From an uncultured Nocardioidaceae bacterium (GTDB lineage Bacteria > Actinomycetota > Actinomycetes > Propionibacteriales > Nocardioidaceae), in assembly GCA_902805845.1 (NCBI GenBank), contig CADCUI010000034.1, forward strand, positions 1 to 38,366: 38,366 nt of DNA, in the 5' to 3' direction. Position numbers and translations under genes: made by a program. The notes under the pieces are model-generated. The model was not told the origin of the DNA, searched no databases, and worked only from the letters and a program-made list of their open reading frames with translations. Shown in pieces: positions 1-21,145 of the stretch (its first letter is position 1; every line of letters begins with the position of its first letter).

Positions 1-1
1 C

Positions 2-223
2 ACCCCGATCATCAACCAGCCGCAGGTGGCGATCCTCGGCACCGGCACGGTCGTGAAGCGCCCCGTGGTCATCGACGACGCGAACCTCGGCGAGACGATC
101 GCCGTACGGCAGATGTGCTACCTGGCGCTGACCTACGACCACCGACTTGTCGACGGCGCCGACGCCGCCCGGTTCCTCAGCGACGTCAAGCAGCGGCTCG
201 AGACCGGCCAGTTCGAGGTCTGA
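2..223 (+). CDS. sucB: 2-oxoacid dehydrogenase E2 (dihydrolipoamide acyltransferase), C-terminal end
   Basis: Only the last 73 residues are present; the gene begins before the window. They match the C-terminal end of the catalytic acyltransferase domain of E2 subunits, with the active-site motif [14 protein letters not shown], in which His and Asp act in acyl transfer from the lipoyl arm to CoA. The upstream part, [12 protein letters not shown], is also typical of the domain. The lipoyl and E1/E3-binding domains lie outside the window. In this neighbourhood (lipB and lipA downstream) the usual annotation is the succinyltransferase of 2-oxoglutarate dehydrogenase, but a pyruvate or branched-chain E2 cannot be excluded from this fragment. 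The stop codon overlaps the next start (TGATG), suggesting translational coupling with the epimerase gene. Confidence 0.9.
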
Positions 224-1113: not shown

Positions 1114-1172
1114 GACCTCGCCGGTCGTGCCGGTGCCTGCTCGGGGGTGCCTCAGGGGTGCCTCGGGGAAGG

Positions 1173-1811
1173 TCAACGCGCTGCCACCCTGGCCATCAGC
1201 CAGTGGCCGTCAGCGGGCAGGAGCGTCAGGCGCCACCGGTCGGCCCGGTCGGCAGGGAGGGCACGACGGACCGGCCGACCATGCGCGGCACGTGCCACTG
1301 CTCCCATCAGCCGGTCGCGGACCACGAGCACCAGGCAGTGCGGGGTCCACCGGTCGAGGCGGAGGTCGAGCACCTGCGTCTGCATCCGCCTGACGACCAG
1401 TCCACGTCCGACGTACCGCTGCAGCATGGCGACGTCGCTCTCTCCCGCGCTCGAGGTCGGGGTGTACAGGCGTCGCAACGCCGCCACGTCGCCTTGCGCG
1501 TACGCCGCGGACCGCCGTGCGTCCCACCGGTGCAACAGCTCCGACGCCGCGACCACCCGGGCGCGCCTCGTCCGCTCGGCCGGAGCGACCGACTGGCCGG
1601 GACCCACCGCCGCCGAGTCGCCGGGCGACGGCATCACCGGGAGTGACGAGGCACACCCGGCGGCCGCGCCGACGAGGACCACGGCGGTGACGGCAACCAC
1701 GGCGACGACGGCGTCGCGGACGACGGCGCGGACACCGGCCGGGAGACTTGCGCGGGTGGGGCGCACCCGAGCATCGTGCCGCAGTCCTCGGCCGCGTCGG
1801 GGGTTCTCCAC
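1173..1811 (-). CDS. Hypothetical membrane-anchored or lipoprotein
   Basis: A 212-residue protein if the GTG at 1809-1811 is used; a second GTG at 1764-1766 would give 197 residues. Neither has a convincing ribosome-binding site. The longer start would leave no leader free of the lipB Shine-Dalgarno, so the shorter form may be right. A hydrophobic segment (residues about 34-51, rich in Ala and Val) ends in AAAGCASS, a plausible lipobox, so the protein is probably exported and lipidated. The remainder ([25 protein letters not shown] and a later [14 protein letters not shown]) resembles the small extracytoplasmic SnoaL/NTF2-like folds of actinobacteria. This is a weak impression and no function is claimed. 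It is divergent from lipB. Confidence 0.6.
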
Positions 1812-1831
1812 AGGAGGCTAGGCTCGCGGCG

Positions 1832-2566
1832 ATGAGCGGACTGCGCTTCGAGCACCCCGGCTTCGGCGACCGGGCGCTGGACTACCTCACCGCCTGGGAC
1901 CTGCAGCGACGGGTCCACGACCGTGTGGCGGCGGGCGGCGAGGGCACCGTGCTGCTGCTCGAGCACCCTCCGGTCTACACGGCGGGGAAGCGCACCCAAC
2001 CCCACGAGCGACCCTTCGACGGCACGCCGGTGATCGACGTCGACCGGGGCGGGAAGATCACGTTCCACGGTCCCGGCCAGCTGGTCGGCTACCCCATCAC
2101 GCGGCTGCCCGATCACGTCAAGGTCGTCGACTACGTGCGGCGGGTCGAGGAGGCGCTCATCCGGGTGTGCGCCGAGCTGGGCGTGGCCACCGCCCGGGTG
2201 CCGGGCCGCAGCGGCGTGTGGCTGGCGCCGGACGCGGGCGGGCCCGAGCGCAAGGTCGCGGCGATCGGCATCCGCGTCAGCCGCGGGATCACCATGCACG
2301 GCTTCGCGCTCAACTGTGACGTCGACCTCGGCTGGTACGACCGGTTCGTGCCCTGCGGCATCACTGACGCGGGCGTGACCTCGCTCAGCGCCGAGCTGGG
2401 TCGTCAGGTCACCGTCCCGGACGTGGTGCCCCTCGTCGAGCGCGCGCTCGCGGAGCTGTTGTCCTGGGCGCCGTACACCCCGACGCCGGACTATCCCGCC
2501 AAGCCGGACCCGTCTCGCCGTCCGGTTCCCGTGCTGCGTGTCCCGGTGGTCAATCCGCTGTCGTGA
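1832..2566 (+). CDS. lipB: Octanoyltransferase (lipoate-protein ligase B)
   Basis: LipB transfers octanoate from octanoyl-ACP to the lipoyl domains of E2 and H proteins, the first step of endogenous lipoate synthesis in the cytoplasm. The 244-residue protein has the family signature [18 protein letters not shown] (residues 71-88) and the catalytic pair Lys141 (in ERKVAAIGI) and Cys175 (in [10 protein letters not shown]), which correspond to the known acyl-thioester dyad of the family. RSGVW near residue 126 and GFALN near 157 are also conserved. The start is the ATG at 1832, preceded by AGGAGG at 1812-1817; the longer frame back to 1748 is non-conserved. It precedes the ABC genes and lipA on the same strand and fits with the E2 gene upstream. 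Confidence 0.96.
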
Positions 2567-2641
2567 CCGACGGCTGCGGCAGGCTGGGGAGGTCGAGCCG
2601 CCGGACCGGCCGGTGACCGGTGCCAGGATTCCAGGAGTGGC

Positions 2642-3610
2642 GTGACCGACCTCGTCCTCGAGACGCGCGGGCTGCGGAAGGAGTTCCGCTCCCGACGTGG
2701 TCGGCATGTGGTGGCCGTCGCGGACCTGGACCTGCAGGTCCCGCGAGGCGGCGTGCACGGCTTCCTCGGGCCCAACGGCTCGGGCAAGACCACGACCATC
2801 CGGATGCTGCTGGGGCTCGCCGGCGCCAGCGCCGGCGAGATGCGCCTCCTCGGCGAGCCGGTGCCCCAGCGGCTCCCGGCGGTCATGGACGGGGTCGGCG
2901 CGGTGGTCGAGCAGCCCAAGTTCCTTCCGGGGTTCACGGGCAGGCGCAACCTCACTCTCCTGGCGCGGAGCATCGGCGTGCCCACCTCCCGGGTGGACGC
3001 GGCGATCGAGCGGGTTGGGCTGGCGGGCCGGGAGGAGGACCGCTACAAGGCCTTCTCGCTGGGCATGCGCCAGCGGTTGGCGATCGCAGCCACGCTGCTC
3101 AAGTCGCCGCAGCTGCTGATCCTCGACGAGCCGACGAACGGCCTCGACCCGGCGGGCATCCGCGACATCCGCGACACCGTGCGCGAGCTCGGCGAGAGCG
3201 GCGTCACGGTGCTGCTGAGCTCGCACATCCTCGCCGAGGTGCAGCAGGTCTGCGACTCGGTGTCGGTCATCGGCAACGGCCGGCTGCTGGCGGCGGGCAC
3301 AGTCGCAGAGCTGGTGGGTCGGGCGCGCAGCGGAGGCGTGTGGGTGGGCGTGCCCGACGCCGGGGCGGCCGGAGATCGACTCACCGGGGCCGGGCTGCGC
3401 GTCACCCGCGACCGCCACCACCTCTACGTCGAAGGCGTCGACGACCCGGCCGACGTCACCCGGCTCCTCGCCGACGCCGGCATCTACGTGCGGGAGCTGG
3501 TACCGGACCGGCCGGACCTCGAGCAGGTCTTCCTGCAGCTCACCGAGGACCACGAGCTCGGCACGGGTGCAGGACCGGCGCGTGTCGGCCATGGCGGAGG
3601 CCTGTCATGA
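2642..3610 (+). CDS. ABC transporter ATP-binding protein
   Basis: A 322-residue nucleotide-binding subunit with a GTG start preceded by AGGAG. It shows all the ABC landmarks: Walker A GPNGSGKTTT (about 43-52), Q-loop Gln91, signature SLGMRQRL (139-146), Walker B LLILDEPTNGLDP (158-170) and H-loop His195 in LLSSHIL. The LSxGMRQR form and the roughly 100-residue extension after the H-loop (ending LEQVFLQLTEDHELG) are typical of the ABC-2/DrrA-type exporters. Its stop codon overlaps the start of the permease (ATGA), so the two are translationally coupled and form one exporter. The cargo is not identifiable. Its position between lipB and lipA gives no evidence that it handles lipoate. Confidence 0.95.
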   Translation: MTDLVLETRGLRKEFRSRRGRHVVAVADLDLQVPRGGVHGFLGPNGSGKTTTIRMLLGLAGASAGEMRLLGEPVPQRLPAVMDGVGAVVEQPKFLPGFTGRRNLTLLARSIGVPTSRVDAAIERVGLAGREEDRYKAFSLGMRQRLAIAATLLKSPQLLILDEPTNGLDPAGIRDIRDTVRELGESGVTVLLSSHILAEVQQVCDSVSVIGNGRLLAAGTVAELVGRARSGGVWVGVPDAGAAGDRLTGAGLRVTRDRHHLYVEGVDDPADVTRLLADAGIYVRELVPDRPDLEQVFLQLTEDHELGTGAGPARVGHGGGLS

Positions 3611-4563
3611 GGCTGTTCATGGTCGAGCTGGTGCGGCTGGCGTCGCGGCGCGCGGTCGTGGTGCTCCTGCTGGTCGCCACCGGCCTCGCCGCCGTGATGC
3701 TGGTCTCGGCCGCCTACGACACCCGCCCGGTCGACGCCACCGAGCGCGCGGCGGCCGAGCAGCAGCTGGCTCAGCAGCGGAAGGCCGGGGAGTCCGACTA
3801 CCGCGCCTGCCTCGACGACCCCACCGGCTACTACGGCCCCGGGGCCACGGCGTCCGACTGCGAGGGGAGCCGCCCTCGCCTCGAGTGGTTCCTCAGCCGC
3901 CCCGAGCTCGATCTCGTCGCGGAGGTCGAGGGGAGGGGGCGGACCCTCCTGGCGCTGCTCGCTGTCACCGGGGTCCTGATCGGAGCCACGTTCGCGGGTG
4001 CCGACTGGTCGAGCGGCTCGCTGACCAACCAGCTGCTGTTCGTGCCCCGCCGTACCCCGGTCTGGCTGGCCAAGGGCGTCGCCGTGGTGGGAGGCACCAC
4101 CTTGTCCGCGGCGGTGGTGCTCGCCGCCTTCTGGGGCTCGCTGCAGGCGGTGGCGTCGGCCCGAGGGCTGGGTGCGTCCGCCGACGCGTGGCGGGAGGTG
4201 CTGCTCGGCTCCGGTCGAGGGTTGGGCCTGGTCGCGGCGGTGACGCTCGGCGGGTTCGCGCTGACGATGCTGCTGCGCAGCACCGTGGCCACGCTCGGGC
4301 TGCTTCTGGGGTGTCTGGTCGTCGGCGAAGGGCTGGCCTCGGGGCTGCCGTTCGAGCGGATGAGCCAGTGGTCCCCGGCCCAGAACGTCGGCGCGTGGCT
4401 CAGCGGTGGCCTTCAGGTCTTCGACACCAGCATCTGCACACCCGAGGGGCAGGCATGCGTCTACACCCTCACGCTCTCCCACGCCGTGACCTATCTCGGC
4501 GCCCTGCTCGCGGTCGCGGTGCTCGCCTCGCTGGTGACGTTCCGCCGCCGCGACGTCGCCTGA
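3607..4563 (+). CDS. ABC-2-type transporter permease subunit
   Basis: A 318-residue membrane protein starting at the ATG that overlaps the ATPase stop. There is one N-terminal membrane segment ([20 protein letters not shown], about 15-34). An extracytoplasmic stretch of about 80 residues follows, with two cysteines (in YRACLDDP and ASDCEGS). Then come about five further hydrophobic segments, from [16 protein letters not shown] to [18 protein letters not shown] second extracytoplasmic loop, [15 protein letters not shown], carries two more cysteines. The layout, and the [18 protein letters not shown] stretch after the second membrane segment, match ABC-2 permeases that work as a homodimer with a DrrA-like ATPase. 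The substrate is unknown. It ends 31 bp before lipA. Confidence 0.88.
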
Positions 4564-4594
4564 GGGCTCTTGGCGTTCGCCGTACGATGACCCG

Positions 4595-5566
4595 GTGACC
4601 GCACAGGCAGAGGGACGCAAGCTCCTGCGCCTGGAGGCGCGCAATGCCGAGACCCCCATCGAGCGCAAGCCGGAGTGGATCAAGACGCGTGCGCGGATGG
4701 GGCCGGAGTACACCGCGCTGCAGTCGCTGGTGAAGTCCGAAGGGCTCCACACCGTCTGCCAGGAGGCCGGCTGCCCCAACATCTTCGAGTGCTGGGAGGA
4801 CCGCGAGGCCACCTTCCTCATCGGCGGGGAGCAGTGCACCCGGCGCTGCGACTTCTGCCAGATCGACACCGGCAAGCCGCAGCCGCTGGATCGCGACGAG
4901 CCGCGGCGGGTGGCCGAGAGCGTGCGCACCATGGGACTGCGCTACGCCACGATCACCGGTGTTGCCCGTGACGACCTGCCCGACGGGGGCGCCTGGCTGT
5001 ACGCCGAGACCGTCCGGGCGATCCACGAGCTCAACCCGGGCACCGGCGTGGAGAACCTGATTCCCGACTTCAACGGGCAGCCGGACCTGCTCGCGGAGGT
5101 CTTCGAGTCCCGGCCGGAGGTCCTCGCGCACAACGTGGAGACCGTGCCGCGCATCTTCAAGCGGATCCGGCCGGCGTTCCGCTACGACCGGTCGCTGGGT
5201 GTCCTCACCGCCGCCCGGGCGTTCGGGCTCGTCACCAAGTCCAACCTCATCCTCGGCATGGGTGAGACGCGCGAGGAGGTCTCGCAGGCGCTGCGCGACC
5301 TGCACGAGGCGGGCTGCGAGCTGGTGACCATCACCCAGTACCTCCGTCCCTCGGTGCGTCACCACCCGGTCGAACGATGGGTCCGCCCGGAGGAGTTCGT
5401 GGAGCTCGCCGACGAGGCCGAGCAGATCGGCTTCGCCGGGGTGCTGTCCGGTCCCCTGGTGCGCTCGTCGTACCGGGCCGGACGTCTCTACCGGCAGGCG
5501 CTCGAGCGGCGCGGCGAGCCGGTCGCCCAGGACGCGGCGGCGGGCGTCGGCCCCGCGGCGATCTGA
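4595..5566 (+). CDS. lipA: Lipoyl synthase (radical SAM)
   Basis: LipA inserts two sulfur atoms into protein-bound octanoyl groups to give lipoate. The 323-residue protein carries the auxiliary-cluster cysteines C55-x4-C60-x5-C66 (in [12 protein letters not shown]), which bind the sacrificial 4Fe-4S cluster. It also carries the radical-SAM triad C81-x3-C85-x2-C88 (CTRRCDFC). The family's C-terminal serine that ligates the auxiliary cluster is in RSSYRAG (about 290-296). The start is GTG at 4595; the region just upstream contains CGTACGAT, a possible -10 element, so lipA may have its own promoter as well as read-through from the ABC genes. It pairs functionally with lipB and with the E2 gene at the left edge. 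Confidence 0.97.
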
Positions 5567-5624
5567 GAGAATCGACCGGCTCCCCGGGAGCCGTCGTTCC
5601 CAGCACCACCCGAGGCAGGAGTCC

Positions 5625-6314
5625 ATGGCGAAGTCCGGCAAGAAGGGCCGCATCCGGCAGCTGATCCAGGCCTACAAGCTCACGCGCGAAGGCGACCCCA
5701 AGATCGGGCTGGTGCTGCTCGGCACCTTCCTCTTCGCCGCTGCAGTGGGCTTCGCCCTGATGTGGTTGCTGCCGCCCCCGTGGCTGGTGGTCGACGCGCT
5801 CACCGCGTTCCTGATCGGCCTCCTGGCGGTGCTGATCGTCTTCGGCCGGAGGGCGACCAGGTCGCAGGTCAAGCAGATCGAGGGCAAGCCCGGTGCGGCG
5901 GTCGCGGTGCTCGGGACGCTGCGCCGCGGCTGGCGCACCGACCAGGCCATCGCCTTCAACCGCCAGCAGGACGTCGTGCACCGCCTCGTCGGGCCGCCCG
6001 GGATCATCCTCGTGGGGGAAGGCAACCCGGCCCGGCTCAAGCAGCTGATGAGCGCCGAGCGCGTGCGGCACCAGCGGGTGGCCTCGGAGGCGCCGATCCA
6101 CGAGCTCGTCGTCGGTTACGGCCCCGGCGAGGTACCGCTCGGGAAGCTCACCCGACACGTCACCAAGATGAAGCGGCAGGTGCGTCCGGCCGAGATGACC
6201 GACATCCTCGCGCGGCTCAAGGCTCTCGACGCGCAGAAGTCGAACATCCCGCTGCCGAAGGGCCCCATGCCCACCAGCATGAAGGGGCTCAGGGGCAACC
6301 TGCGCGGCCGGTGA
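5625..6314 (+). CDS. DUF4191 family membrane protein
   Basis: A 229-residue protein of the actinobacterial DUF4191 family, commonly found directly after lipA. It starts at the ATG preceded by GGCAGGAG. The N-terminus is basic (MAKSGKKGRIRQLIQAYKLT). Two adjacent membrane segments follow, LVLLGTFLFAAAVGFALMWL and VVDALTAFLIGLLAVLIVFG (about 30-73). The remaining 150 residues are soluble and presumably cytoplasmic, with RRGWRTDQAIAFNRQQDVVH and RLKALDAQKSNIPLPKGP as the recognisable conserved stretches. No catalytic motif is visible and the function is unknown. It converges on the lipoprotein gene with only 18 bp between the stop codons. Confidence 0.88.
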   Translation: MAKSGKKGRIRQLIQAYKLTREGDPKIGLVLLGTFLFAAAVGFALMWLLPPPWLVVDALTAFLIGLLAVLIVFGRRATRSQVKQIEGKPGAAVAVLGTLRRGWRTDQAIAFNRQQDVVHRLVGPPGIILVGEGNPARLKQLMSAERVRHQRVASEAPIHELVVGYGPGEVPLGKLTRHVTKMKRQVRPAEMTDILARLKALDAQKSNIPLPKGPMPTSMKGLRGNLRGR

Positions 6315-6332
6315 CCGGCCGGCGGCCCTACC

Positions 6333-7172
6333 TCACCTGAACGGCGCCGGGACGAGGTCCTTCGCCGCCGGCGCCTCGACGTCAACCGGCTCGCCCCACT
6401 TGCTCAGCTCGAGGTGGACGGTGGCGCCCTCCACCTCGATGTCGAACTGCCGGAGCCGGTCCTCGGCGTCGAGCCACACGTCGGCGACCAACGAGTCGGG
6501 CACGCCGGACTCGCCCGACTCCTTGGTCACTGCGTCGAGCTTGTCGGCCAGCCCCAACGCCTCCGCGGCGCCCTGGGGGTCCAGGGTGAGACGGAAGTGC
6601 TCCACCGGCTCGCCGCCGACGGTCTCCGCTCCGAGCGTCTCCACCTTCTTGATGCCGGCCTCGATCGCGGCGAGGACCACCTCGGGTGACATCGAGTGGT
6701 GGTCGTCCATGCCCTTCGCGTGGCCCGGGCCGCCGAGCCCCGCCAGCAGCTCCTTGTCGACCTTGAAGTATTGGCCGGGCTGGGTCATCCCGGGCACTGC
6801 CACGTAGAGCGTGTGGTCGACGAGGAGGGCGGTGATCTCGCCCGTGCCCATCGCCGGCACCGAGAGGGTGAAGCGGCCCTCGGGACCACCGGGGCCGTAC
6901 TCCACGTCGCCCTCACCGTCGGCCGCCATGGCCCCGGTCACCCTGAGGACCGCGTGCGCCGAGCCGGAGTCGCCGATGCCGCTCCGCACCCGGTCCACGA
7001 ACGCGGAGGGCGAGAGGGTCGAGGCGCCGGTGTCCGCGGCGGGCTCCGCCGCTCCGGCCGCGACGGTGGTCGCGCCCCTGTCGCCGGCCTCGCTGCCACC
7101 GCACGCGGCGAGCGGCACCGCGAGTGCACAGACCGAGACGACGGGGACGAGAGGACGAAGGACGAGTCGCAT
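6333..7172 (-). CDS. LprG/LppX-type lipoprotein
   Basis: A 279-residue exported lipoprotein. The signal sequence MRLVLRPLVPVVSVCALAVP ends in the lipobox LAAC with Cys24, followed by a Gly/Ala/Thr-rich linker. The mature part (from STLSPSAFVDRVRSGIGDSG) has the layout of the LppX/LprAFG fold, half-barrel lipoproteins that bind or carry lipids under the cell envelope: GTGEITALLVDHTLYVAVPGM, GQYFKVDKE, then GGEPVEHFRLTLDP and ADVWLDAEDRLRQFDIEVEG. Assignment to that family is by pattern and length (usual size 230-280). The lipid is unknown. It lies 16 bp downstream of the RDD gene on the same strand, so the two probably share a transcript. Confidence 0.82.
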   Translation of the reverse strand: MRLVLRPLVPVVSVCALAVPLAACGGSEAGDRGATTVAAGAAEPAADTGASTLSPSAFVDRVRSGIGDSGSAHAVLRVTGAMAADGEGDVEYGPGGPEGRFTLSVPAMGTGEITALLVDHTLYVAVPGMTQPGQYFKVDKELLAGLGGPGHAKGMDDHHSMSPEVVLAAIEAGIKKVETLGAETVGGEPVEHFRLTLDPQGAAEALGLADKLDAVTKESGESGVPDSLVADVWLDAEDRLRQFDIEVEGATVHLELSKWGEPVDVEAPAAKDLVPAPFR

Positions 7173-7188
7173 CTCGCCAGCGTACGCG

Positions 7189-7617
7189 CTACCTGCGCAG
7201 CGTCACCGTGCCGACGGCGAGGTCGTGCAGGCCGCGGTTGTCCCTGTTGAAGACCACCGGGGGGATGACGAGGCAGATGAGCAGCGTGCGGAGCAGCGCG
7301 GCGAGGATCGTCACCGGTCGGCCGTCCAGCCGCACCACGACGATCCTGAGGGCGAGCTGCCCGAACGACCCACCCGCCAGTGCGGTGAACAGGGTGACTT
7401 CCAGGAAGAAGACGAGGAGCGGCAGCGAGCGCTCGGCGTCGGCGCTGAGGTCGGCGTAGGCGCCGATCACCTGGGTGACCAGCAGCGAGGCGAACCAGTC
7501 GATGAAGAGCGCGGCGACCCGTCGGCCCCAGCCGGCGACCGACCTCGAGCCCTCCTCCGGGAGGCCGAGCCGCTGCCCGGCGTACTTCTGCTCCCCGAGC
7601 GGGAGGTCCTGGCTCAT
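7189..7617 (-). CDS. RDD family membrane protein
   Basis: A 142-residue protein starting at the ATG at 7615-7617 (MSQDLPLGEQKYAGQRLGLP); the open frame is three codons longer. After a soluble N-terminal stretch of about 30 residues, the motif GWGRRVAALFIDWFASLLV gives the Arg and first Asp of the RDD domain. Two or three further hydrophobic segments follow (LPLLVFFLEVTLFTALAGG, LLRTLLICLVIPPVVF). NRDNRGLHDLAVGT carries the last conserved Asp. The function of RDD proteins is mostly unknown; some move ions. It is divergent from glnA, an arrangement seen in many actinobacteria, and shares the intergenic region holding the GlnR box. Confidence 0.9.
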   Translation of the reverse strand: MSQDLPLGEQKYAGQRLGLPEEGSRSVAGWGRRVAALFIDWFASLLVTQVIGAYADLSADAERSLPLLVFFLEVTLFTALAGGSFGQLALRIVVVRLDGRPVTILAALLRTLLICLVIPPVVFNRDNRGLHDLAVGTVTLRR

Positions 7618-7636
7618 GCCTCGCACGCTACCGGGC

Positions 7637-7674
7637 GTAACACCGGCGAAACACGAGAGATACGGCGGGGAAAC
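7637..7674 (+). promoter_or_regulatory. GlnR operator upstream of glnA (four half-sites)
   Basis: Four 5-bp half-sites lie on one strand, each separated by exactly 6 bp: GTAAC at 7637-7641, GAAAC at 7648-7652, GATAC at 7659-7663 and GAAAC at 7670-7674. This alternates the two half-site types of the actinobacterial GlnR box (gTnAC-n6-GaAAC), giving two complete boxes in series. It is about 100 bp before the glnA start and 20 bp upstream of the divergent RDD gene start. GlnR control of glnA is well established in Streptomyces and mycobacteria; whether the RDD gene responds too is open. Confidence 0.88.
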
Positions 7675-7774
7675 CCCTCCTGCCTAGCGTTCCTCACGAT
7701 GCAGCGCCGCATCGGACCGAGCTTGTGATCGACCCGCCCGGACAGGTGGTCGCGTGCGCGACCGAGGAGGACGA

Positions 7775-9193
7775 ATGTTCGCAAACAGCGACGAGCTTCT
7801 GAAGTTCATCAAGGACGAGCACGTCGAGATGGTCGACGTCCGCTTCTGCGACCTGCCCGGGGTGATGCAGCACTTCACGGTCCCGGTGTCGTCCTTCGAC
7901 CAGTCGGTCTTCGACGACGGCCTGAACTTCGACGGCTCCTCCATCCGCGGGTTCCAGGCGATCCACGAGTCGGACATGTCGCTGTTCCCCGACCCGACCA
8001 CGGCGTACCTCGACCCCTTCCGGGCCGTGAAGACGCTGATCGTGAACTTCTTCATCCACGACCCGCTCACCGGCGAGCCCTACAGCCGTGACCCGCGCAA
8101 CATCGCCCGGAAGGCGCAGGCGTACCTCACGTCGACCGGCATCGGCGACACCGCCTACTTCGCCCCCGAGGCCGAGTTCTACGTCTTCGACTCGGTGCGG
8201 TTCCAGACCACGCAGAACGAGGGTTTCTACCACATCGACTCCGAGGCGGGCGCTTGGAACACCGGCTCGGAGACCAACAACCGCGGCTACAAGGTCAAGT
8301 ACAAGGGCGGCTACTTCCCGGTGGCGCCCTACGACCACTTCGGTGACTTCCGCGACGAGATCGTGCTGGAGCTGGAGCGCGCGGGCCTGGTCGTGGAGCG
8401 CGCCCACCATGAGGTCGGTACGGCGGGCCAGGCCGAGATCAACTGGCGCTTCGACGAGCTGCTGCCCTCCGCCGACTCGGTCATGAAGTTCAAGTACATG
8501 GTCAAGAACGTCGCCTGGCGCAACGGCAAGACCGCGACCTTCATGCCGAAGCCGATCTTCGGTGACAACGGCTCGGGCATGCACTGCCACCAGTCGGTCT
8601 GGAACGAGGGCGAGCCGCTGTTCTACGACGAGGCGGGGTACGCCGGGCTCTCCGACATGGCGCGCTACTACATCGGCGGTCTGCTCAAGCACGCCCCGTC
8701 GCTGCTGGCTTTCACCAACCCGACCGTGAACTCCTACCACCGGCTGGTGCCTGGGTTCGAAGCCCCGGTGAACCTGGTGTACAGCCAGCGAAACCGCTCG
8801 GCCTCGGTGCGGATCCCCATCACCGGCGCCAACCCGAAGGCGAAGCGCATCGAGTTCCGCTGCCCCGACCCGTCGGCCAACCCCTACCTCGCCTTCTCGG
8901 CGATGCTGCTGGCCGGGATCGACGGCATCCGGAACAAGATCGAGCCGGCACAGCCGATCGACAAGGACCTCTACGAGCTGCCGCCCGACGAGCACGCCGA
9001 GGTCGCCCAGGTGCCCGCCTCCCTCGGGGCGGTGATGGACCGGCTCGAGTCCGACCACGACTTCCTGCTCGAGGGCGGCGTCTTCACCCCCGACCTCATC
9101 GAGACGTGGATCGACTACAAGCGGACCCAGGAGATCGCCCCGATCGCACTGCGTCCGCACCCGCACGAGTTCGAGCTCTACTACGACATCTGA
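7775..9193 (+). CDS. glnA: Glutamine synthetase, type I
   Basis: GlnA makes glutamine from glutamate, ammonia and ATP and is the main route of ammonium assimilation. The start at 7775 ([20 protein letters not shown]) follows a strong GAGGAGG at 7764-7770, giving 472 residues, a normal GSI length. Visible motifs: [13 protein letters not shown] and YLDPF in the N-terminal domain, [33 protein letters not shown] (ATP and substrate site) and NRSASVRIP. The adenylylation loop is present, with Tyr400 in [10 protein letters not shown], so activity is probably controlled by GlnE as well as transcriptionally through the GlnR operator upstream. No partner gene (glnE or glnB) is in the window. Confidence 0.98.
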
Positions 9194-12371: not shown

Positions 12372-12597
12372 GCAAAGGACCGACACCCTCGATTCCGGGA
12401 CCGATGAGGCACCGGTTCGCGTCGCTCGACGTACCGGTTATGGATCCACCAACGGCACGCGGCGCCGCATGGGTCCCTCCGTACGCAGCCTCCGCTGGGC
12501 GCGGTGGTCAACCGGCCCTCGGTGTGGTCTGACCGATGAAATCGTCCGCGCCGCGTTGGTCTGTACGCCGAATACCGACTCACGGGAGGCTGACGCC

Positions 12598-12918
12598 ATG
12601 CAGAAACTGACCTTCGCCATGAACGTGAGCCTGGACGGCTACATCGCCGCGCCGGGCGACGACCTCGGCTGGAGCGTGCCGAGCGACGAGCTGTTCCAGT
12701 GGTGGTCCGACCGGGTGGGGGCGACGGGCCTGGCGCTGTACGGGCGCAAACTGCGGGAGACAATGAGCTCCTACTGGCCGACCGCCCACCGGCAGCCTGG
12801 CGCCACACCGGCGCAGATCCAGTTCGCAGCCCTGGACAACTGGGTGGACCTGAACCTGGTGGAGACCTGGACGTTTCCCGACGGCGTGCTCCTGACCAGG
12901 TACGAGACCAGGCGCTGA
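12598..12918 (+). CDS. Dihydrofolate-reductase-family (RibD C-terminal) protein with an internal in-frame deletion
   Basis: A 106-residue product, with GGGAGG at 12584-12589 before the ATG. The N-terminus (FAMNVSLDGYIAAPGDDLGW, SDELFQWWSD, TGLALYGRKL, PGATPAQIQFA) is the start of an actinobacterial dihydrofolate-reductase-family protein. The C-terminus (ALDNWVDLNLVETWTFPDG, LLTRYETRR) is the very end of the same family. The middle of a normal protein of about 180-190 residues is missing; the join is near residue 77 (about 12826). Lost parts include the segment that usually reads KVVFSST and the GGxxL nucleotide-binding region, so it is unlikely to be an active reductase. It is best read as a relic that stayed in frame. 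Confidence 0.8.
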   Translation: MQKLTFAMNVSLDGYIAAPGDDLGWSVPSDELFQWWSDRVGATGLALYGRKLRETMSSYWPTAHRQPGATPAQIQFAALDNWVDLNLVETWTFPDGVLLTRYETRR

Positions 12919-13134: not shown

Positions 13135-13611
13135 CTACCTCGGCGGCAATGGCTGCAGGCGTCGCGACGTGGCGTCCCTGACCAGCTTGGTGACCCTCTT
13201 CTCGACGTCGGAGCTCCAGTCGGTGATCGCGAAGGAGACCGGCCACATGGGTCCGTCGTCGAGGGCGGCGTCGTCGTTGAAGCCGAGGGTGGAGTAGCGG
13301 CTCTTGAACTTCTCGGCGCACTGGAAGTAGACGACGACCTTGCCTTCGTCGTTGGCGTACGCGGGCATGCCGTACCACGTCTTGGCCGTGAGGTCGGGAG
13401 CCGTGGTGGTCACCGTCACGTGCACCCTCTCGGCCAGGCGCCTGTCCTGCGGTGACATCTCCGCGATCTTGTCGAGGACGGCCTTCAGCCCGTCGGCCTT
13501 CTTGGCGCCCTTCCTTCCCTCGGTTCGGAGCTCGGCTGTGCGCTCCTTCATCGCGGCGCGCTCCTCGGCCGTGAAGCCGCGGTCGGACGGGGTGGCAGTA
13601 GGTGTCGGCAT
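13135..13611 (-). CDS. DUF1801-family protein
   Basis: A 158-residue protein from the ATG at 13609-13611, chosen because AGGAGAG precedes it at proper spacing; the frame is open further upstream without conservation. The N-terminal third is a charged helical stretch (FTAEERAAMKERTAELRTEG, then a Lys/Ala-rich segment). The rest is a DUF1801 (YdhG-like) fold: LKAVLDKIAEMSPQDRRLAERV, PDLTAKTWYGMPAYANDEGK, VVVYFQCAEKFKSRYSTLGF and MWPVSFAITDW. The biochemical role of these proteins is unsettled; some are called iron chaperones by homology. It follows the DUF1059 gene and the sigma factor on the same strand, with a 145-bp gap. Confidence 0.82.
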   Translation of the reverse strand: MPTPTATPSDRGFTAEERAAMKERTAELRTEGRKGAKKADGLKAVLDKIAEMSPQDRRLAERVHVTVTTTAPDLTAKTWYGMPAYANDEGKVVVYFQCAEKFKSRYSTLGFNDDAALDDGPMWPVSFAITDWSSDVEKRVTKLVRDATSRRLQPLPPR

Positions 13612-13756: not shown

Positions 13757-13993
13757 TCAGCCGTTGGGAAGCGCGGCGAAGGTCCGCTTCGTGTCGCGGT
13801 ACCAGCCCATCGACCTCTTCGGGTGACGCCATCGGCTCTTCATCGCGTCGCGCGCCTCCTGGTGGGTGGCGTCGCCGGCCTTCTCCGCTTCCTTGAGGTG
13901 TCGGTCCTGGGCGTTGATGACGTCGTCGGCGCTCTCGCCGTGGTGAGCGAGGTCGCAAGGGCCTCCGAGGTCCTTGCAGGTCATGGTCTTCAT
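13757..13993 (-). CDS. DUF1059-family small protein
   Basis: A 78-residue protein starting MKTMTCKDLGGPCDLAHHGE, which is the DUF1059 opening: two conserved cysteines in CKDLGGPCD. The rest (DDVINAQDRHLKEA and HQEARDAMKSRWRHPKRSM) is helical and charged. The start has a strong GAAGGAG 11-17 bp before it. The function of the family is unknown; the paired cysteines and histidines suggest metal or redox chemistry, which is inference. The gene lies just downstream of the ECF sigma gene and has its own copy of the same promoter-like element, so it is the most likely direct target of that sigma factor. Confidence 0.86.
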   Translation of the reverse strand: MKTMTCKDLGGPCDLAHHGESADDVINAQDRHLKEAEKAGDATHQEARDAMKSRWRHPKRSMGWYRDTKRTFAALPNG

Positions 13994-14033
13994 GGTGGTG
14001 TGCTCCTTCCGATTGCTGGGTCCTGTGGTGACT

Positions 14034-14060
14034 GACGTCGAGAACCGGTGCGGTGTGACC
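14034..14060 (-). promoter_or_regulatory. ECF41-type promoter for the DUF1059 gene, GGTCACA-N16-CGTC
   Basis: On the minus strand, GGTCACA (complement of 14054-14060) is followed after exactly 16 bp by CGTC (complement of 14034-14037). This matches the known ECF41 promoter TGTCACA-N16-CGTC at 10 of 11 defined positions. It lies about 40 bp before the DUF1059 start and just past the sigma-gene stop. An element with the same sequence and spacing precedes the sigma gene itself. Confidence 0.75.
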
Positions 14061-14063
14061 GCC

Positions 14064-14900
14064 TCAGCGTGGTTCTCGAGCTTGCGTGCGCCGGGTGACG
14101 CGGGCCAGCACCTCGGGTGCTGCCCTGAAGGTGATCGCTTGGACGAGGCCGCCTCGGATCGTGAAGTCGAAGACGACCTTGGGCTGGCCGAGGTGGTACC
14201 ACGCGCTGCCTGCTCGGTCATCGAGGAGGACCGGGAGTGCGGCGCTGGCGCTGCCGTTGAAGAAGGTCGCCGTCGCGTCGCTGCCCTCGATCCGCTGAGG
14301 TGTCCCCATCAGGACCGCCGCGTCGTCGGCGGTCACGGCTGCGTCGGGCGCGAGCAGCTCGAGCAACCGGTCGAAGTCTCCGTGCCTGGCCGCGGCCATG
14401 AAGGCGTCGACGACCTCCCAGTCGGCCAACCGGTCCTCGGGGCGCGGCTGGCTCACCTTGGCCCGCGCGCGGGAGGCCAGCTTGCGGGCAGCGGCGGGCG
14501 TGGTGTCGAGGAGCGCTGCAATCGTCGAGAACTCGAACCCGAAGCTGTCGTGAAGCACGAACGAGACGCGCTCGCTGGGCGTCAGCCGGTCCAAGACGAC
14601 GTTCAGGGCCCGCCCGACGGTGTCGGCGAGGGCGACGTCCTCGGCGGGGTCGTCGACGATCCCAGCGAGCTCGAGGTCCTCGACCGGGACGGGGGTGCGA
14701 GAGCGCAGCCTGTCCAGGCACAACCGGGTGGTGACGGTCGTCAGCCATGCGGGCAGGCTTTCGATGGCGGCGCCGGTTCCGTGGAGGCGGAGCCACGTCT
14801 GCTGCACGACGTCCTCGGCCTCCGCGCGGTCGCCCAGGATCCGGCTCGCCATGCCGACGAGGCGCGGTCGCTCGGCTTGGAACTCGTCGGTTCGGTCCAC
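14064..14900 (-). CDS. ECF41/SigJ-type RNA polymerase sigma factor with SnoaL-like C-terminal domain
   Basis: A 278-residue sigma factor. Region 2 is in RLVGMASRILGDRAEAEDVV and PAWLTTVTTRLCLDRLRSR; region 4 is in RLTPSERVSFVLHDSFGFEF and TTPAAARKLASRARAKV. After it comes an NTF2/SnoaL-like domain of about 110 residues (VVDAFMAAARHGDFDRLLEL through FDFTIRGGLVQAITFRA). Such fused domains replace an anti-sigma factor in ECF41/SigJ proteins. The Asp-Gly-Gly-Gly motif usual in the C-terminal part is not visible; the equivalent stretch reads TADDAAVLMG. The GTG at 14898-14900 is chosen because AAGGAG sits 8 bp before it; the GTG three codons earlier is too close to that site. The promoter-like element upstream suggests autoregulation. 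Confidence 0.88.
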   Translation of the reverse strand: MDRTDEFQAERPRLVGMASRILGDRAEAEDVVQQTWLRLHGTGAAIESLPAWLTTVTTRLCLDRLRSRTPVPVEDLELAGIVDDPAEDVALADTVGRALNVVLDRLTPSERVSFVLHDSFGFEFSTIAALLDTTPAAARKLASRARAKVSQPRPEDRLADWEVVDAFMAAARHGDFDRLLELLAPDAAVTADDAAVLMGTPQRIEGSDATATFFNGSASAALPVLLDDRAGSAWYHLGQPKVVFDFTIRGGLVQAITFRAAPEVLARVTRRTQAREPR

Positions 14901-14933
14901 GTCGTCCACTCCTTAGATTCCGGTCACCAGACT

Positions 14934-14960
14934 GACGCGACGAACAAGGCAGATGTGACC
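14934..14960 (-). promoter_or_regulatory. ECF41-type promoter for the sigma gene, GGTCACA-N16-CGTC
   Basis: On the minus strand, GGTCACA (complement of 14954-14960) is followed after exactly 16 bp by CGTC (complement of 14934-14937), about 33 bp before the preferred sigma start. The spacing and both boxes are the same as those in front of the DUF1059 gene, while the spacers differ in sequence. This argues for conserved function rather than recent duplication. Confidence 0.75.
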
Positions 14961-15211: not shown

Positions 15212-16336
15212 TCACGTCTCGTGTGGCGCCTCCGACACGGTGAGGTTGAGCCAGCGCGCCAACTCCGTGAGTCTGAACTCGACAGCGGAGCGCAGGTTGT
15301 CGTGCAACGGCTCGTCGACGTGAACCGCGTGCACGAGCAGTTCGCCCGCCTCGCGATCCGCTGTCACGTCGACCTTGCCCACCAGCCCGGCACCGTGCAG
15401 GACGGGCAGGGCGTAGTAGCCCCAGCGGCGCTTCTCCTTGGGCTTGTACATCTCCAGCGTGTAGTCGAAGGCGAGCAGGTCGGTCATCCGTTTGCGATCG
15501 TGCAGCAGAAGGTCGAAGGGCGCGAGCAACTCGGTGCGGTCGGGCGCGGGACGGTCGAGCGTCTCCAACGCGGCGGGGTCGACGCGCCACCGTCCTCGTA
15601 CGCTCTCGACCACCGCCGGCTCACCGGCCTCGCCAGCTCCGACCGGTATCCCCTGCTGGAAGACCGCTCCGGCGCGGGCGAGGCCGAGGGCACACAGGCG
15701 GCGGCGGTCGAGCTCGGCCTCGGCCTCGGCGAGAGGGGGGACTGGGTCGTCGGGGTAGACGCGGTCCGCGAGGTCGTAGATGCGTTCACCGTTCGCACGA
15801 CCCGCGACCGCCACTTCGCCGCGCTGCACGAGCTGGGCGACCAGCATGCGGGTGTTCTTCCCGTCGTTCCAGCCCGACGATCGCCAGGGGCGCACGCAGG
15901 TGTCGGGTAGCGAGCCGACCGGCAGCGGTCCTTCCTGCCGTAGTCGCTCGAGCACGTCCTGGCGACACGCCTCGTTGGCCTCCATCCAGTCGTGCAGCCG
16001 GTGGTGCCACTCCTTCCAGGGCCCAGGAGTCGGCCAGGCAACCATCTGGGCCCGGTACGGGGCGACGTCGTCGATGGAGCGAAACCCACCTGCGACCTCG
16101 AGGAGCCGCTGCGACGCGATCGCGTCGTCTAGATCCCCGGGCCGGTGATCGTGCCCGAGTCTGCTCAAGAGCACGAGTTCCGCGGCCGGCGCCACCGCGC
16201 GGGTCTGGTCAAGGGGGAGCATCGTGAGCCGCCGCGCGGCGTCCAGCATGTCGTCCGGACGATCGTCGGCCAACAGAGCAGCCTGGACTGCGATCCGTCG
16301 TGCCTGGTGTTGCGTCAGTCGGTGCGTCGCCTCCAT
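15212..16336 (-). CDS. YcaQ/AlkZ-like winged-helix DNA-binding protein (HTH_42)
   Basis: A 374-residue protein of the winged-helix superfamily that contains the DNA glycosylases AlkX (YcaQ) and AlkZ, which unhook interstrand crosslinks. Recognisable parts: LTQHQARRIAVQ at the N-terminus, DAARRLTMLPLDQTRAVAPA and AELVLLSRLG, RVYPDDPVPP in the middle, then LLAPFDLLLHDRKRMTDLLAF, YTLEMYKPKEKRRWGYYALP and VLHGAGLVGKVD. In AlkX-type enzymes the catalytic motif is Gln-x-Asp at the place that reads Pro-Leu-Asp here (residues about 41-43 from this start), so glycosylase activity is doubtful. The start is the ATG at 16334-16336; a GTG two codons earlier is possible. It seems monocistronic. Confidence 0.83.
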   Translation of the reverse strand: MEATHRLTQHQARRIAVQAALLADDRPDDMLDAARRLTMLPLDQTRAVAPAAELVLLSRLGHDHRPGDLDDAIASQRLLEVAGGFRSIDDVAPYRAQMVAWPTPGPWKEWHHRLHDWMEANEACRQDVLERLRQEGPLPVGSLPDTCVRPWRSSGWNDGKNTRMLVAQLVQRGEVAVAGRANGERIYDLADRVYPDDPVPPLAEAEAELDRRRLCALGLARAGAVFQQGIPVGAGEAGEPAVVESVRGRWRVDPAALETLDRPAPDRTELLAPFDLLLHDRKRMTDLLAFDYTLEMYKPKEKRRWGYYALPVLHGAGLVGKVDVTADREAGELLVHAVHVDEPLHDNLRSAVEFRLTELARWLNLTVSEAPHET

Positions 16337-16342
16337 GGTCAC

Positions 16343-17749: not shown

Positions 17750-20700
17750 ATGATGTCGCATTTCTCGCGGAGTGACCGATCTGGCCTGCGACTCGGAATC
17801 ATTGCAATGCTCGTGGCGGCGGCCGCATTGGTCGGACCCATGCCGCATGCAAGTGCCGCGGCTCCCGTGACGGTGTCGTTGGTGTTCAACGACGGGCTGT
17901 CCTCGCAGTTCCGCAACGCCGCTCCCGCGCTCCAGGCCCGCAGCATGGACGGCACCTTCTACGTCGCCAGCAACTGGGTGAAGACCAACGACTCGAAGTA
18001 CATGCGGTTCTACCATCTTGACGAGCTCTACCGGCAGGGCAACGAGATCGGCGGCATGGGCAAGGACCACAAGAACCTCACCAGCACCTACGACGCCGAC
18101 CCAGCCGCTGACCTCGCCTACAAGCGTGACCAGGTGTGCGGCGACTTCCAGGCCCTCACGACCTGGGGCTACCACCCTGTGAGCTTCGCGTACCCCGGCT
18201 CGGCAGAGAACGCCACGGTGCAGGGCATCGTCCGGGACTGCGGTTTCACCACCGGCCGGGTGGCCGGCGGGCTGTCCGCGACCGGGCCGGCCTACGCCGA
18301 GCCGATTCCCGCGACCAACTCGCTTCGGCTGCGCTCGGCCACCACGCCGGCCGGGGCGATGACCCTGCAGACACTGCAGAACGCCGTGACCGCTGCGGGC
18401 AACAACGGCGGCGGCTGGCTGCCCCTCGCCTTCAACGACGTGTGCAGCTCGACCGACGCCAGCTACTCCACCTGCATGAACGGCAGCAAGCCGATCGACG
18501 CAGCCGTGTTCGCCTCGTTCCTGGACTGGCTCGCCTCACAGGCGCCGGAGGGCGTCACGGTCAAGACGGTGCGCCAGGTCATGGCTGCCGATCAGCCTCC
18601 CCTGCCGTCACGTCCCTTCGTCGTCTCCCTGACCTTCGACGACGGCCTCAGGTCGCAGTACGGGCTCCGGGAGATCTTCGCGCGGCACAACGTGCACGGA
18701 ACCTTCTACATCAACTCGGGTCCCGTCGACGCACGCGAGGCCGGCACCATGTCGTGGGCACAGATCCGCGACCTCCAAGGGGCGGGGCACGACATCGGCG
18801 GACACACCCGGGACCACATCAACATGCTCGCCACCGACACCTCCCTGGAGTTCAAGACCCGACAGACGTGTGACGACCGACAGCGGCTCCTCGAGGAGGG
18901 CATCAACGCGGTCAGCTTCGCGTATCCCTTCGGAGCAATGGACGCCACCGCGCAGCCCATCGTCCGAGGCTGCGGGTACCAGTCGGGCCGCAAGGCGGGC
19001 ACCGTGACCTCCGACGGCCCGATCTACTCCGAGACCATCCCGGTGACCGAGAACCCCTACGCGATCAGGATCCTGGGCACCAACTACAACGGGGCCGTCA
19101 CTCTCGAGGCCCTGCAGTACGCCGTGAACCAGGCCACCAAGTACGGCGGCAGCTGGCTGCCCACTCTCTTCCACCAGATCTGCTACGCGGGGACGCCGAC
19201 GTACGACAGCTGCATGGCGGGTTACCGGCCGATCGACGACGTGACCATCGACGCGTTCCTCGGCTGGTTGGGAAGCCAGACGGACCGCAACATCACCGTG
19301 AAGACCGTTGCCGACGTCATGGGCGGCGGCTCCACCGCACCGGTGGTGCGGGTCACCGCTCCGGCAGCCGGATCTGTCTCGCCCTCCGGGCAGCCGGTGC
19401 TGTCCGGCACGGCCAGCGGCAACGGCAACGTCGCCGTCCGGCTGTACCAGGGCGACTACTCCACCGGAACGCCGGTGGCCACGCTCTCCGCCCCGGTCAC
19501 GGCGGGCGCCTGGAGCGTCGAGCCGGGCACGGCGCTTCCGGACGGCAGCTACACCGTCCAGGCCAGCCAAGCTGCTGGCAACGCGACGGGAACCAGCGTG
19601 CCGACGCGGTTCACCGTGGACACGACGAAGGCGCCGACCGACACCACCGCACCTGAGGTCTCGGTGACGAGCCCGTCTGCGGGAGCGACCTTGTCGACCT
19701 CCACACCCAGCCTCGAAGGGACAGCCGGCACCGCCACAGGTGACGGGTCCGAGGTGACGGTCCGGGTGTTCGAGGGCTCCGTGGTCGGTGGATCGCCGGC
19801 GCAGACCCTGACCGCAACGGCGACCTCGGGCGGCGCGTGGTCCACGACCGCGTCCGCGCTGGCCGACGGTGTCTACACGGTGGAGGCGACGCAGGCCGAC
19901 CAAGCCGGCAACACCGGGAGAAGCTCCGCGGTGACCTTCACCGTGGACACCACGCGCGTCGACTCCACCGCCCCCAGCGTCACCATCGACAGCCCGGTTG
20001 CTGACGCGACGCTCGACACAGCCACCCCGGTCCTCAGGGGGACGGCAGGCACCGCCACCGGAGACGACGCCGATGTCGTGGTGAGCATCTCGCCGTCGTC
20101 GGAGACGCAGGGCGACGCGGTTCAGACCCTTCGCGGGACCGTCGGGAGCGACGGCACGTGGTCGGTCACGGCTGCAGCCCTGGCAGACGGCACCTACACG
20201 GCGCAGGCGACCCAGTCCGACGCGGCCGGCAACGGCGGTGTCAGCAACTCCGTCACCTTCACCGTGTCGACGGCGCCGGCGGACACGACCGCTCCCGCGG
20301 TCACCCTCACCGCGCCGACTGCGGGAGCGACCGTGGTCACCGCCGACGTCCCGGTCGCCGGCGGTGCCGGTGCAGAAGAAGGAGACGACGCCACCGTCTC
20401 GCTCGAGGTCTACACGGGCAGCAGCGCGACGGGCACTCCGACGCAGAGGCTCACCGCCGCAGCCGCGTCGGGTGCATGGTCCACCAACGTCACCGGGCTG
20501 GCGGCAGGCACCTACACGCTCGTCGCTGCCCAGTCAGACGCCGCGGGCAACGTGGGTCGTAGCCAAGCCGTCACCTTCACCAAGGCCGTGGTCCCGACCA
20601 TCACGTCGATCTCGCCCACCACGTTGGGGCAAGGGGCGACCTCGACCACGGTGAGGATCAACGGCTCGGGCTTCAACAGCTCCACGGCGGCTGCCATCTC

Positions 20701-21145
20701 CGGAGCCGGCGTGACCTCGAGCGTGGTGTCCCGGACCAGCACGGTGGTGACCTTGAACGTGACCGTCGGCGCCGCGGCGGCGACCCAGCCACGCAACGTG
20801 ACCGTGACGAACAGCACCGGAGCAACCACGACGTGCACAGGCTGCCTCTCGATCGTTGCCGGTCCCTCGATCACCGGCGTGAGCCCGACCTCGGTGCGCC
20901 GTGGACTCAGCACGACCGTGACGATCACCGGTGCGAGGTTCCCGACCGGGAACGGCAATGTGCAGGTCGCCGTCTCGGGCACGGGCATCACCGTCGGGAC
21001 CGTCAGGGTGGTCAGCTCGACGACCGTGACGGCTGTCCTCCAGGTGTCGTCGACGGCGGCATTGACAGCCCGTTCCTTGACCCTGACGAACAGGACCACG
21101 TTCGGCAGCGCCACGAGGAGCAATGCGGTGACCGTGGTGCCTTGA
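17750..21145 (+). CDS. Secreted tandem NodB polysaccharide-deacetylase-like protein with Ig-like and IPT-like repeats
   Basis: A 1131-residue exported protein; AGGGG precedes the ATG. A signal peptide (residues about 1-38, ending HASAAA) is followed by two NodB-type domains. The first (about 40-280) has FNDG at 46-49 in place of the TFDDG motif and GGMGKDH at 101-107 in place of HTxxH, so it lacks the catalytic Asp and one metal-binding His. The second (about 290-530) is canonical: LTFDDG ending at residue 299 and HTRDH at 352-356. Then come about four Ig-like repeats, each with a PDGSYTV- or ADGVYTVEATQ-like ending and AGN. Two IPT/TIG-like domains follow (ITSISPTTLGQGATSTTV, ITGVSPTSVRRGLSTTV). 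No sortase motif or membrane anchor is visible. It probably acts on wall or capsule glycan. It converges with the next gene, 3 bp apart. Confidence 0.9.
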   Translation: MMSHFSRSDRSGLRLGIIAMLVAAAALVGPMPHASAAAPVTVSLVFNDGLSSQFRNAAPALQARSMDGTFYVASNWVKTNDSKYMRFYHLDELYRQGNEIGGMGKDHKNLTSTYDADPAADLAYKRDQVCGDFQALTTWGYHPVSFAYPGSAENATVQGIVRDCGFTTGRVAGGLSATGPAYAEPIPATNSLRLRSATTPAGAMTLQTLQNAVTAAGNNGGGWLPLAFNDVCSSTDASYSTCMNGSKPIDAAVFASFLDWLASQAPEGVTVKTVRQVMAADQPPLPSRPFVVSLTFDDGLRSQYGLREIFARHNVHGTFYINSGPVDAREAGTMSWAQIRDLQGAGHDIGGHTRDHINMLATDTSLEFKTRQTCDDRQRLLEEGINAVSFAYPFGAMDATAQPIVRGCGYQSGRKAGTVTSDGPIYSETIPVTENPYAIRILGTNYNGAVTLEALQYAVNQATKYGGSWLPTLFHQICYAGTPTYDSCMAGYRPIDDVTIDAFLGWLGSQTDRNITVKTVADVMGGGSTAPVVRVTAPAAGSVSPSGQPVLSGTASGNGNVAVRLYQGDYSTGTPVATLSAPVTAGAWSVEPGTALPDGSYTVQASQAAGNATGTSVPTRFTVDTTKAPTDTTAPEVSVTSPSAGATLSTSTPSLEGTAGTATGDGSEVTVRVFEGSVVGGSPAQTLTATATSGGAWSTTASALADGVYTVEATQADQAGNTGRSSAVTFTVDTTRVDSTAPSVTIDSPVADATLDTATPVLRGTAGTATGDDADVVVSISPSSETQGDAVQTLRGTVGSDGTWSVTAAALADGTYTAQATQSDAAGNGGVSNSVTFTVSTAPADTTAPAVTLTAPTAGATVVTADVPVAGGAGAEEGDDATVSLEVYTGSSATGTPTQRLTAAAASGAWSTNVTGLAAGTYTLVAAQSDAAGNVGRSQAVTFTKAVVPTITSISPTTLGQGATSTTVRINGSGFNSSTAAAISGAGVTSSVVSRTSTVVTLNVTVGAAAATQPRNVTVTNSTGATTTCTGCLSIVAGPSITGVSPTSVRRGLSTTVTITGARFPTGNGNVQVAVSGTGITVGTVRVVSSTTVTAVLQVSSTAALTARSLTLTNRTTFGSATRSNAVTVVP

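Follow-up and report, generated by a model that had tools for sequence, protein, structure and literature searches.

A SigJ-like sigma factor and a small DUF1059-like protein encoded beside it in an uncultured Nocardioidaceae bacterium very probably form a two-promoter mini-regulon, in which a one-component sigma factor would control its own gene together with the DUF1059-like protein as a conserved output. The window (the whole stretch of 38,366 bases that we analysed) contains exactly two matches to KGTCACA-N16-CGTC, at 14034-14060 and 14934-14960, both on the minus strand. The putative ECF41-type promoter of the sigma gene consists of a -35 element, GGTCACA, at 14954-14960, a 16-bp spacer and a -10 element, CGTC, at 14934-14937, which ends 24 nt 5' of the GTG start (14909). 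That of the DUF1059-like gene has GGTCACA at 14054-14060, again a 16-bp spacer, and CGTC at 14034-14037, ending 40 nt 5' of the ATG start (13993). Both boxes stand at promoter-like positions and their spacers differ in sequence. An earlier note had pointed out this pair, with its equal spacing and unlike spacers, and the two boxes proved to be exact and the only ones in a window where chance would supply a mean of 0.17 (100 dinucleotide shuffles, one of which gave two or more matches).

To place the pair in the context of its family, we searched 245 member genomes for the sigma gene and obtained 89 sigma genes at 59-100% identity and at least 315 bits (rounded) before scores dropped to 235 bits. 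The comparison set comprised all 89 orthologues and 20 of the next 22 paralogues among the matches listed; the two omitted from the paralogue controls were an additional G008 match and a G200 match with an in-frame stop. One orthologue with an in-frame stop (G113, locus L095) was kept in the set of 89, and a partial 54% match in G061 (residues 9-191) is not part of it. Two subsets were also used: A1, with 46 of the 87 DUF1059-like sequences, and A2, with 40 of the 89 sigma orthologues (the window's included) and 9 paralogues. A DUF1059-like gene lies within 2 kb of the sigma gene (1.5 kb for the first 30 loci) in 87 of 89 orthologous loci and in 0 of 20 paralogous ones. In one of the two exceptions the small gene is about 5 kb from the sigma gene and carries a box; in the other (G013) the genome has neither a small-gene match nor a box.

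Boxes were called with at most one mismatch at 10 fixed positions, the first base being free, with a spacer of 16 and within about 120 bp. Under this rule a box precedes the sigma gene in 72 of 89 orthologues (58 without mismatch; absent in 17) and the DUF1059-like gene in 71 of 87 loci (65 without mismatch). Relatives that keep both genes and lack the boxes, the outcome that the earlier note had named as contrary to its claim, were looked for, and boxes were present instead: every one of the 87 small genes either has its own box (71) or shares its strand with a boxed sigma gene that it follows (16). Where the small gene is on the opposite strand it has its own box in 10 of 10 cases, and where it is on the same strand within 65 bp of the sigma gene it has none in 12 of 13, as expected of an operon. 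Because the box is kept in the inverted cases and absent in the close same-strand ones, it appears to track the gene and its need for a promoter, and co-transcription of the two genes is likely in the close same-strand loci.

The proposal that the sigma factor controls itself and the small protein is thus borne out, as far as sequence comparison can carry it, by these box counts, by the linkage and by the other predicted genes of the same loci, whose upstream regions contain the box in 0 of 140 cases. In a profile of 137 boxes, 15 of the 16 spacer columns hold <1 bit; the boxes were chosen by similarity to the consensus, so the conservation of the core is partly built in. The orthologues share descent, so the loci are not independent, and the clade tree is a quick one. 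Two 11-base matches are possible in a GC-rich genome, and loci related by descent could carry such boxes through simple inheritance, with no regulatory work attached. We regard this explanation as highly improbable, since 20 shuffles gave means of only 1.05 and 1.45 for the sigma and small genes, respectively, against the 72 and 71 observed, other upstream regions are free of boxes, and boxes are kept on inversion or relocation but absent in all nine phylum-level loci without a sigma orthologue. The small protein is very probably the dedicated output of the sigma factor. When the search was widened to exact GGTCACA-N16-CGTC in six relatives, it gave 31 sites, 30 of which were read as loci, with no recurrent target beyond the pair. 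One site (L260, in a single genome) precedes a 393-aa frame by 52 bp, and a 27-mer common to three genomes is, by crude gene calls, not before a gene.

The sigma gene (14064-14909, minus strand) encodes 281 amino acids with sigma2 and sigma4 followed, at about residues 160-273, by a C-terminal NTF2/SnoaL-like domain. Its sigma2 and sigma4 matches exceed the Pfam cut-off, its SnoaL_2 match (21.1 bits) is below the cut-off of 27, and the best NCBIfam model, SigJ, scores 192.6 bits, below its cut-off of 271. The closest solved structure by sequence is SigJ of M. tuberculosis (PDB 5xe7, E 8e-34), which shares the sigma2, sigma4 and SnoaL_2-like domains and is also the best match by fold, although identity is about 35% in the structural alignment. 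An AlphaFold2 model (pLDDT 90.6) shows a helix-sheet domain at the C-terminus, and Foldseek ranked SigJ 5xe7 first, SigG1 (PDB 7qh5) next and NTF2-like enzymes such as ketosteroid isomerase lower; global TM-scores are low (0.32 to SigJ) and the arrangement of the domains is uncertain (pTM 0.51). Model and Foldseek together indicate a large C-terminal extension of the SnoaL/NTF2 fold, as in ECF41.

The motifs WLPEP and NPDKL are described for ECF41 in the available text of two studies (PMC3426412, PMC7730460). WLPEP in the sigma2-sigma4 linker and NPDKL in the C-terminal extension are both absent from all 89 orthologues and all 20 paralogues. Because both motifs are missing from every orthologue, we do not file the protein as a canonical ECF41 despite its ECF41/SigJ-like promoter, C-terminal fold and closest structure; it is ECF41-like, or SigJ-like, and not an ECF41 member. 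The earlier note's placing of the sigma factor with SigJ and ECF41 thus stands for promoter, fold and structural match but not for these two motifs. In a quick tree the 89 orthologues and five further loci form one branch (SH-aLRT 100). Like the ECF41 systems with COE targets, as set out in the text available of PMC3426412, the unit has (T)GTCACA-N16-CGTC 5' of both the sigma gene and a gene beside it, a C-terminal extension and a very small regulon; unlike them, its clade lacks the WLPEP linker motif and mostly has G rather than T as the first -35 base. A COE gene, which is often though not invariably the neighbouring target in the ECF41 group, was not found in that position, and in 87 of the 89 loci the DUF1059-like gene takes that place. 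A SnoaL_2 extension without NPDKL is also found in the ECF56 factor SigG1 of Streptomyces tsukubaensis, the next fold match, but SigG1 is described in the part of PMC7730460 consulted as having a -10 of CCCTCC, a 17-bp spacer and a partner antagonist gene, RsfG, of a sort that the unit here is not known to have. An ECF56 assignment was rejected, as the boxes here are N16-CGTC.

The host genome has a second unit that bears on which sigma factor reads the boxes. Scanning its 3.28 Mb for [TG]GTCACA-N16-CGTC, as the earlier note had suggested, returned 7 exact matches compared with 1 for a reversed control pattern, and besides the window pair only one of these is clearly promoter-placed. This match, TGTCACA on contig C27, stands before a gene read as carboxymuconolactone-decarboxylase-like, which is followed by a sigma gene with WLPEP that is incomplete at the contig end; each of the remaining four either falls within or across open frames or has no clearly placed gene. 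To judge from sequence, C27 is a canonical, textbook-like ECF41 locus, and the genome has two predicted units, a canonical ECF41 with TGTCACA and the SigJ-like/DUF1059-like pair with GGTCACA. Both boxes of the pair could then be read mainly by the canonical ECF41 or by both sigma factors, making the unit part of a wider ECF41 network. The shared -35/-10 core, the WLPEP motif and the TGTCACA before C27's own target are compatible with such a network, as are an ECF41-type box before 16 of the 20 paralogous SigJ-like sigma genes and distant sigma factors with TGTCACA boxes that seem to read unlinked copies (see below). We nevertheless consider it improbable. With the first -35 base left unscored, 106 of 143 boxes in the clade start with G (55 of 72 for the sigma gene, 51 of 71 for the small gene), compared with only 1 of 16 in the paralogues (T in 10 and C in 5), and both linkage and co-occurrence follow the SigJ-like sigma factor; these two lines of evidence are indirect.

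The DUF1059-like gene (13757-13993, minus strand) encodes 78 amino acids and has a ribosome-binding site, AAGGAG, just upstream of its ATG, within about 14003-14010. Its assignment to DUF1059, made in the earlier note, is borderline. The window protein, taken with one extra leading codon, scores 21.9 bits against a PF06348 cut-off of 21.1, in a match to only the first 36 positions of the 56-position model, whereas the majority consensus of its orthologues (20.6 bits) and another member (18.7) fall below it. Cys6, Cys13 and His32 are present in 86 of 86 loci, His17 in 85 and His44 in 84; locus L063, for which no full N-terminus was found (its match covers residues 13-78 only), was not counted. 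Canonical DUF1059 proteins of other actinobacteria mostly have C-x6/7-C...H-x3-4-H. The small protein shares the N-terminal C-x6/7-C and a following stretch with His, but the second His of H-x3-4-H is replaced, by Glu in 68 of 86 loci and by Val in 15, and a new C-terminal part (RW-x-x-P...WY) extends beyond the 36 matched positions. An AlphaFold2 model (pLDDT 96.8) has two strands followed by three helices, and the protein has no PDB match by sequence or by Foldseek (best E 5.8). Because the invariant Cys6, Cys13 and His32 fall in the N-terminal strand pair and helix, we infer a putative metal-binding or thiol module, although the missing canonical fourth ligand weakens a plain zinc-finger reading. 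A DUF1059 protein listed with a [NiFe]-hydrogenase gene set in the text available of PMC9561532 would fit a link to metal, but is another member of the family.

Presence of the two genes is asymmetric. The small gene occurs in 88 of the 89 family genomes with a sigma orthologue and in 22 of the 156 without one, and of 396 genomes sampled from the phylum, 4 have a sigma orthologue (E <= 1e-60) and 13 have the small gene, that is, 4 of 4 genomes with the sigma factor and 9 of 392 without it; all nine of the latter loci lack a box. That the sigma factor is hardly found without the small gene, while the small gene is found without the sigma factor, favours an effector over an obligate partner regulator. 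Separated copies keep their boxes: in Enemella dayhoffiae the sigma and DUF1059-like genes are on different contigs, both with a box, and in Nocardioides solisilvae, where they are about 5 kb apart, the DUF1059-like gene retains CGTCACA-N16-CGTC.

A scan with the DUF1059-like alignment of one genome per species (84,980 species) found 386 relatives, of which 80 were kept and 32 of those judged to lie outside the Nocardioidaceae. In 21 of the 32 a sigma gene is linked (59-78% identical), in Cellulomonas, Paraoerskovia, Knoellia, Janibacter, Arthrobacter, Modestobacter, Gordonia, Actinomycetospora, Saccharomonospora, Tersicoccus, Ornithinimicrobium, Millisia and further assemblies. The small gene is boxed in eighteen of these linked loci, in 13 of which the sigma gene is boxed as well; in two only the sigma gene has a box, and in Millisia a box precedes the whole run. 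Among the 11 outside loci without a linked sigma gene, nine keep the box and two, in Arthrobacter mangrovi and an Ilumatobacter assembly, do not.

We then searched 15 genomes for the sigma factor, 14 from loci without a linked sigma gene plus Millisia. An orthologue was found in Enemella (on another contig), N. solisilvae (5 kb away) and Millisia; 10 of the 15 have only a 44-51% relative and 2 have none. A. mangrovi has neither sigma factor nor box, consistent with sigma-box pairing. One metagenome-derived assembly (L135) has an exact box and no sigma match at E <= 1e-30, a misfit unless the assembly is incomplete, and eight outside loci are boxed though their genomes show only 45-51% sigma relatives. 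Because these eight loci and seven small genes within the family are boxed without a sigma orthologue, at least one other sigma factor probably reads the boxes in such genomes. Separately, we noted that the 47-51% sigma genes at L205-L209 and L211-L213, in Terrabacter, Terracoccus, Humibacillus, an Intrasporangiaceae strain and Nocardioides currus, have two opposed ECF41-type boxes with -10 elements 8 bases apart; at L208 the gene on the other side of the opposed boxes encodes a glyoxalase-superfamily protein.

Within the family, small genes without a sigma orthologue as called number 23 loci in 22 genomes. With two contig-edge copies beside a cut sigma gene (L308, L309) set aside, 21 loci remain: 7 with an ECF41-type box (at most one mismatch), 9 directly behind a glyoxalase-superfamily gene, 4 with neither and 1 (L322) cut at the contig end and not judged; no stretch among them has both a box and a glyoxalase gene. 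One glyoxalase gene was tested against Pfam and all nine are 61-100% identical to it. A UvrA-like ABC ATPase gene (about 783 residues where complete) follows downstream in nine of nine, and an AraC-type gene lies 5' of the glyoxalase gene in seven of seven compared. These nine loci (L315, L316, L319-L321, L323, L327, L328 and L330) would thus represent an AraC-glyoxalase-DUF1059-UvrA-like operon, and no sigma match was seen in the stretches fetched around it. A literature search, judged by title, found no publication on this operon. At the phylum level, two of the nine loci (L298, L302) have a glyoxalase-like gene just upstream of the small gene, and L298 has an AraC match and no UvrA-like match.

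These loci also weigh on a different role for the small protein, which might mainly regulate the sigma factor, as an anti-sigma factor or ligand relay, the paired promoters then forming a feedback loop rather than a pathway from sigma factor to effector. Such a role would suit the tight linkage (87 of 89), the likely co-transcription in close same-strand loci and a small protein with invariant Cys and His. We hold it to be unlikely, as the protein occurs without a sigma orthologue in 22 of 156 family genomes (two of these being the contig-edge copies) and in 9 of 392 phylum genomes, and sits in a glyoxalase-UvrA-like operon with no sigma match in the fetched stretch.

Of 26 genomes searched for this kind of UvrA-like gene, 25 have one, the host genome among them (contig C4); the 10 sigma-type genomes in this group all carry it away from the small gene. 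In the host genome, AraC and glyoxalase matches precede it with no DUF1059-like gene between. A glyoxalase match was found in one other sigma-type genome (G107), and neither AraC nor glyoxalase in the other seven fetched; this check took in nine of the ten sigma-type genomes (all except G041), with only 1 kb upstream in G007. We also observed that the AraC and glyoxalase matches on the host's contig C4 (L338, positions 1-8000) are shorter than those of relatives and may be broken or frameshifted. The UvrA-like gene was rejected as a second target: no box was found near its start in 15 loci scanned, and the two one-mismatch sites (L347, L349) are >800 bp upstream.

Taken together, the DUF1059-like gene seems to have moved between regulators, the direction of this move being tentative. 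The glyoxalase/UvrA-like context hints at detoxification or tolerance of DNA lesions and is the best lead to DUF1059-like function; judging by this gene neighbourhood in other lineages, the small protein would protect against a reactive or DNA-binding molecule. More tentatively, it could be a portable stress effector passed between regulators, serving in some actinobacteria as one gene of an operon (AraC-glyoxalase-DUF1059-UvrA-like) directed at a reactive or DNA-binding compound. In others it would have left this operon and come, on its own, under a SigJ-like sigma factor that lacks the ECF41 linker motif. The NTF2 domain fused to that sigma factor would sense the same compound, and G rather than T at the first -35 base would help to keep the sigma factor apart from canonical ECF41.

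A DUF1801-like gene (13135-13611, minus strand), 145 nt downstream of the DUF1059-like gene, is a possible third member of the transcript. Its Pfam match is weak (19.1 bits, below the cut-off of 27.2) and it has no box of its own in the window. Its homologue was found in 3 of 15 genomes searched; it adjoins the small gene in the window, in L135 and at L185 of Millisia, with an exact box ahead of the DUF1801-DUF1059-sigma run there, and in G107 it is present but not beside the small gene. Because the gene, though uncommon, has the small gene as its neighbour at three loci, of which one is under an exact box, it is plausibly an accessory member that may share the DUF1059-like transcript. Upstream of the sigma gene, a gene for an AlkZ-like DNA glycosylase (15212-16342, minus strand) was excluded from the unit, as none lies within 1.5 kb of the sigma gene in 29 relatives. 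Elsewhere in the window, a plus-strand frame at 12597-12918, with no Pfam match of its own, resembles by eye a shortened form of a RibD_C-like protein found near the UvrA-like gene in L331 and L332, and 17750-21145 (plus strand) reads as a large protein that looks secreted, its two halves resembling polysaccharide deacetylases, with repeats of Ig-like stretches.

In the mechanism that we favour, the C-terminal NTF2/SnoaL-like domain would be the sigma factor's own sensor, responding to a putative ligand. Once this domain is satisfied, RNA polymerase with the sigma factor would read GGTCACA-N16-CGTC, transcribing the sigma gene itself in a positive feedback and, separately, the DUF1059-like gene, possibly with the DUF1801-like gene behind it in the source genome. 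The DUF1059-like output would then help the cell to cope with a reactive or DNA-binding small molecule, the presumed stress.

COE genes are given as the only detectable ECF41 targets in the available text of the ECF41 study, which also mentions hypothetical proteins with a box (Wecke et al. 2012, PMC3426412). A literature search, with that study's supplementary table outside its scope, found no publication on ECF41 together with DUF1059, and the sigma-DUF1059-like pairing may have been tabulated earlier without recognition. By its title, a later study reportedly has an ECF41 sigma factor controlling motility in Azospirillum. What is new here is a clade of SigJ-like sigma factors without the ECF41 linker motif that has a closely kept, predicted DUF1059-like target instead of a COE gene, together with two other settings of the small gene in genomes lacking the sigma orthologue, behind an ECF41-type box (7 of 21 family loci) or between glyoxalase-like and UvrA-like genes (9 of 21). 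The clade gives a defined promoter pair to test and a reporter for finding the signal, and its target, with glyoxalase-like and UvrA-like partners in other lineages, provides initial clues, from regulation and from gene neighbourhood, to what DUF1059-like proteins do.
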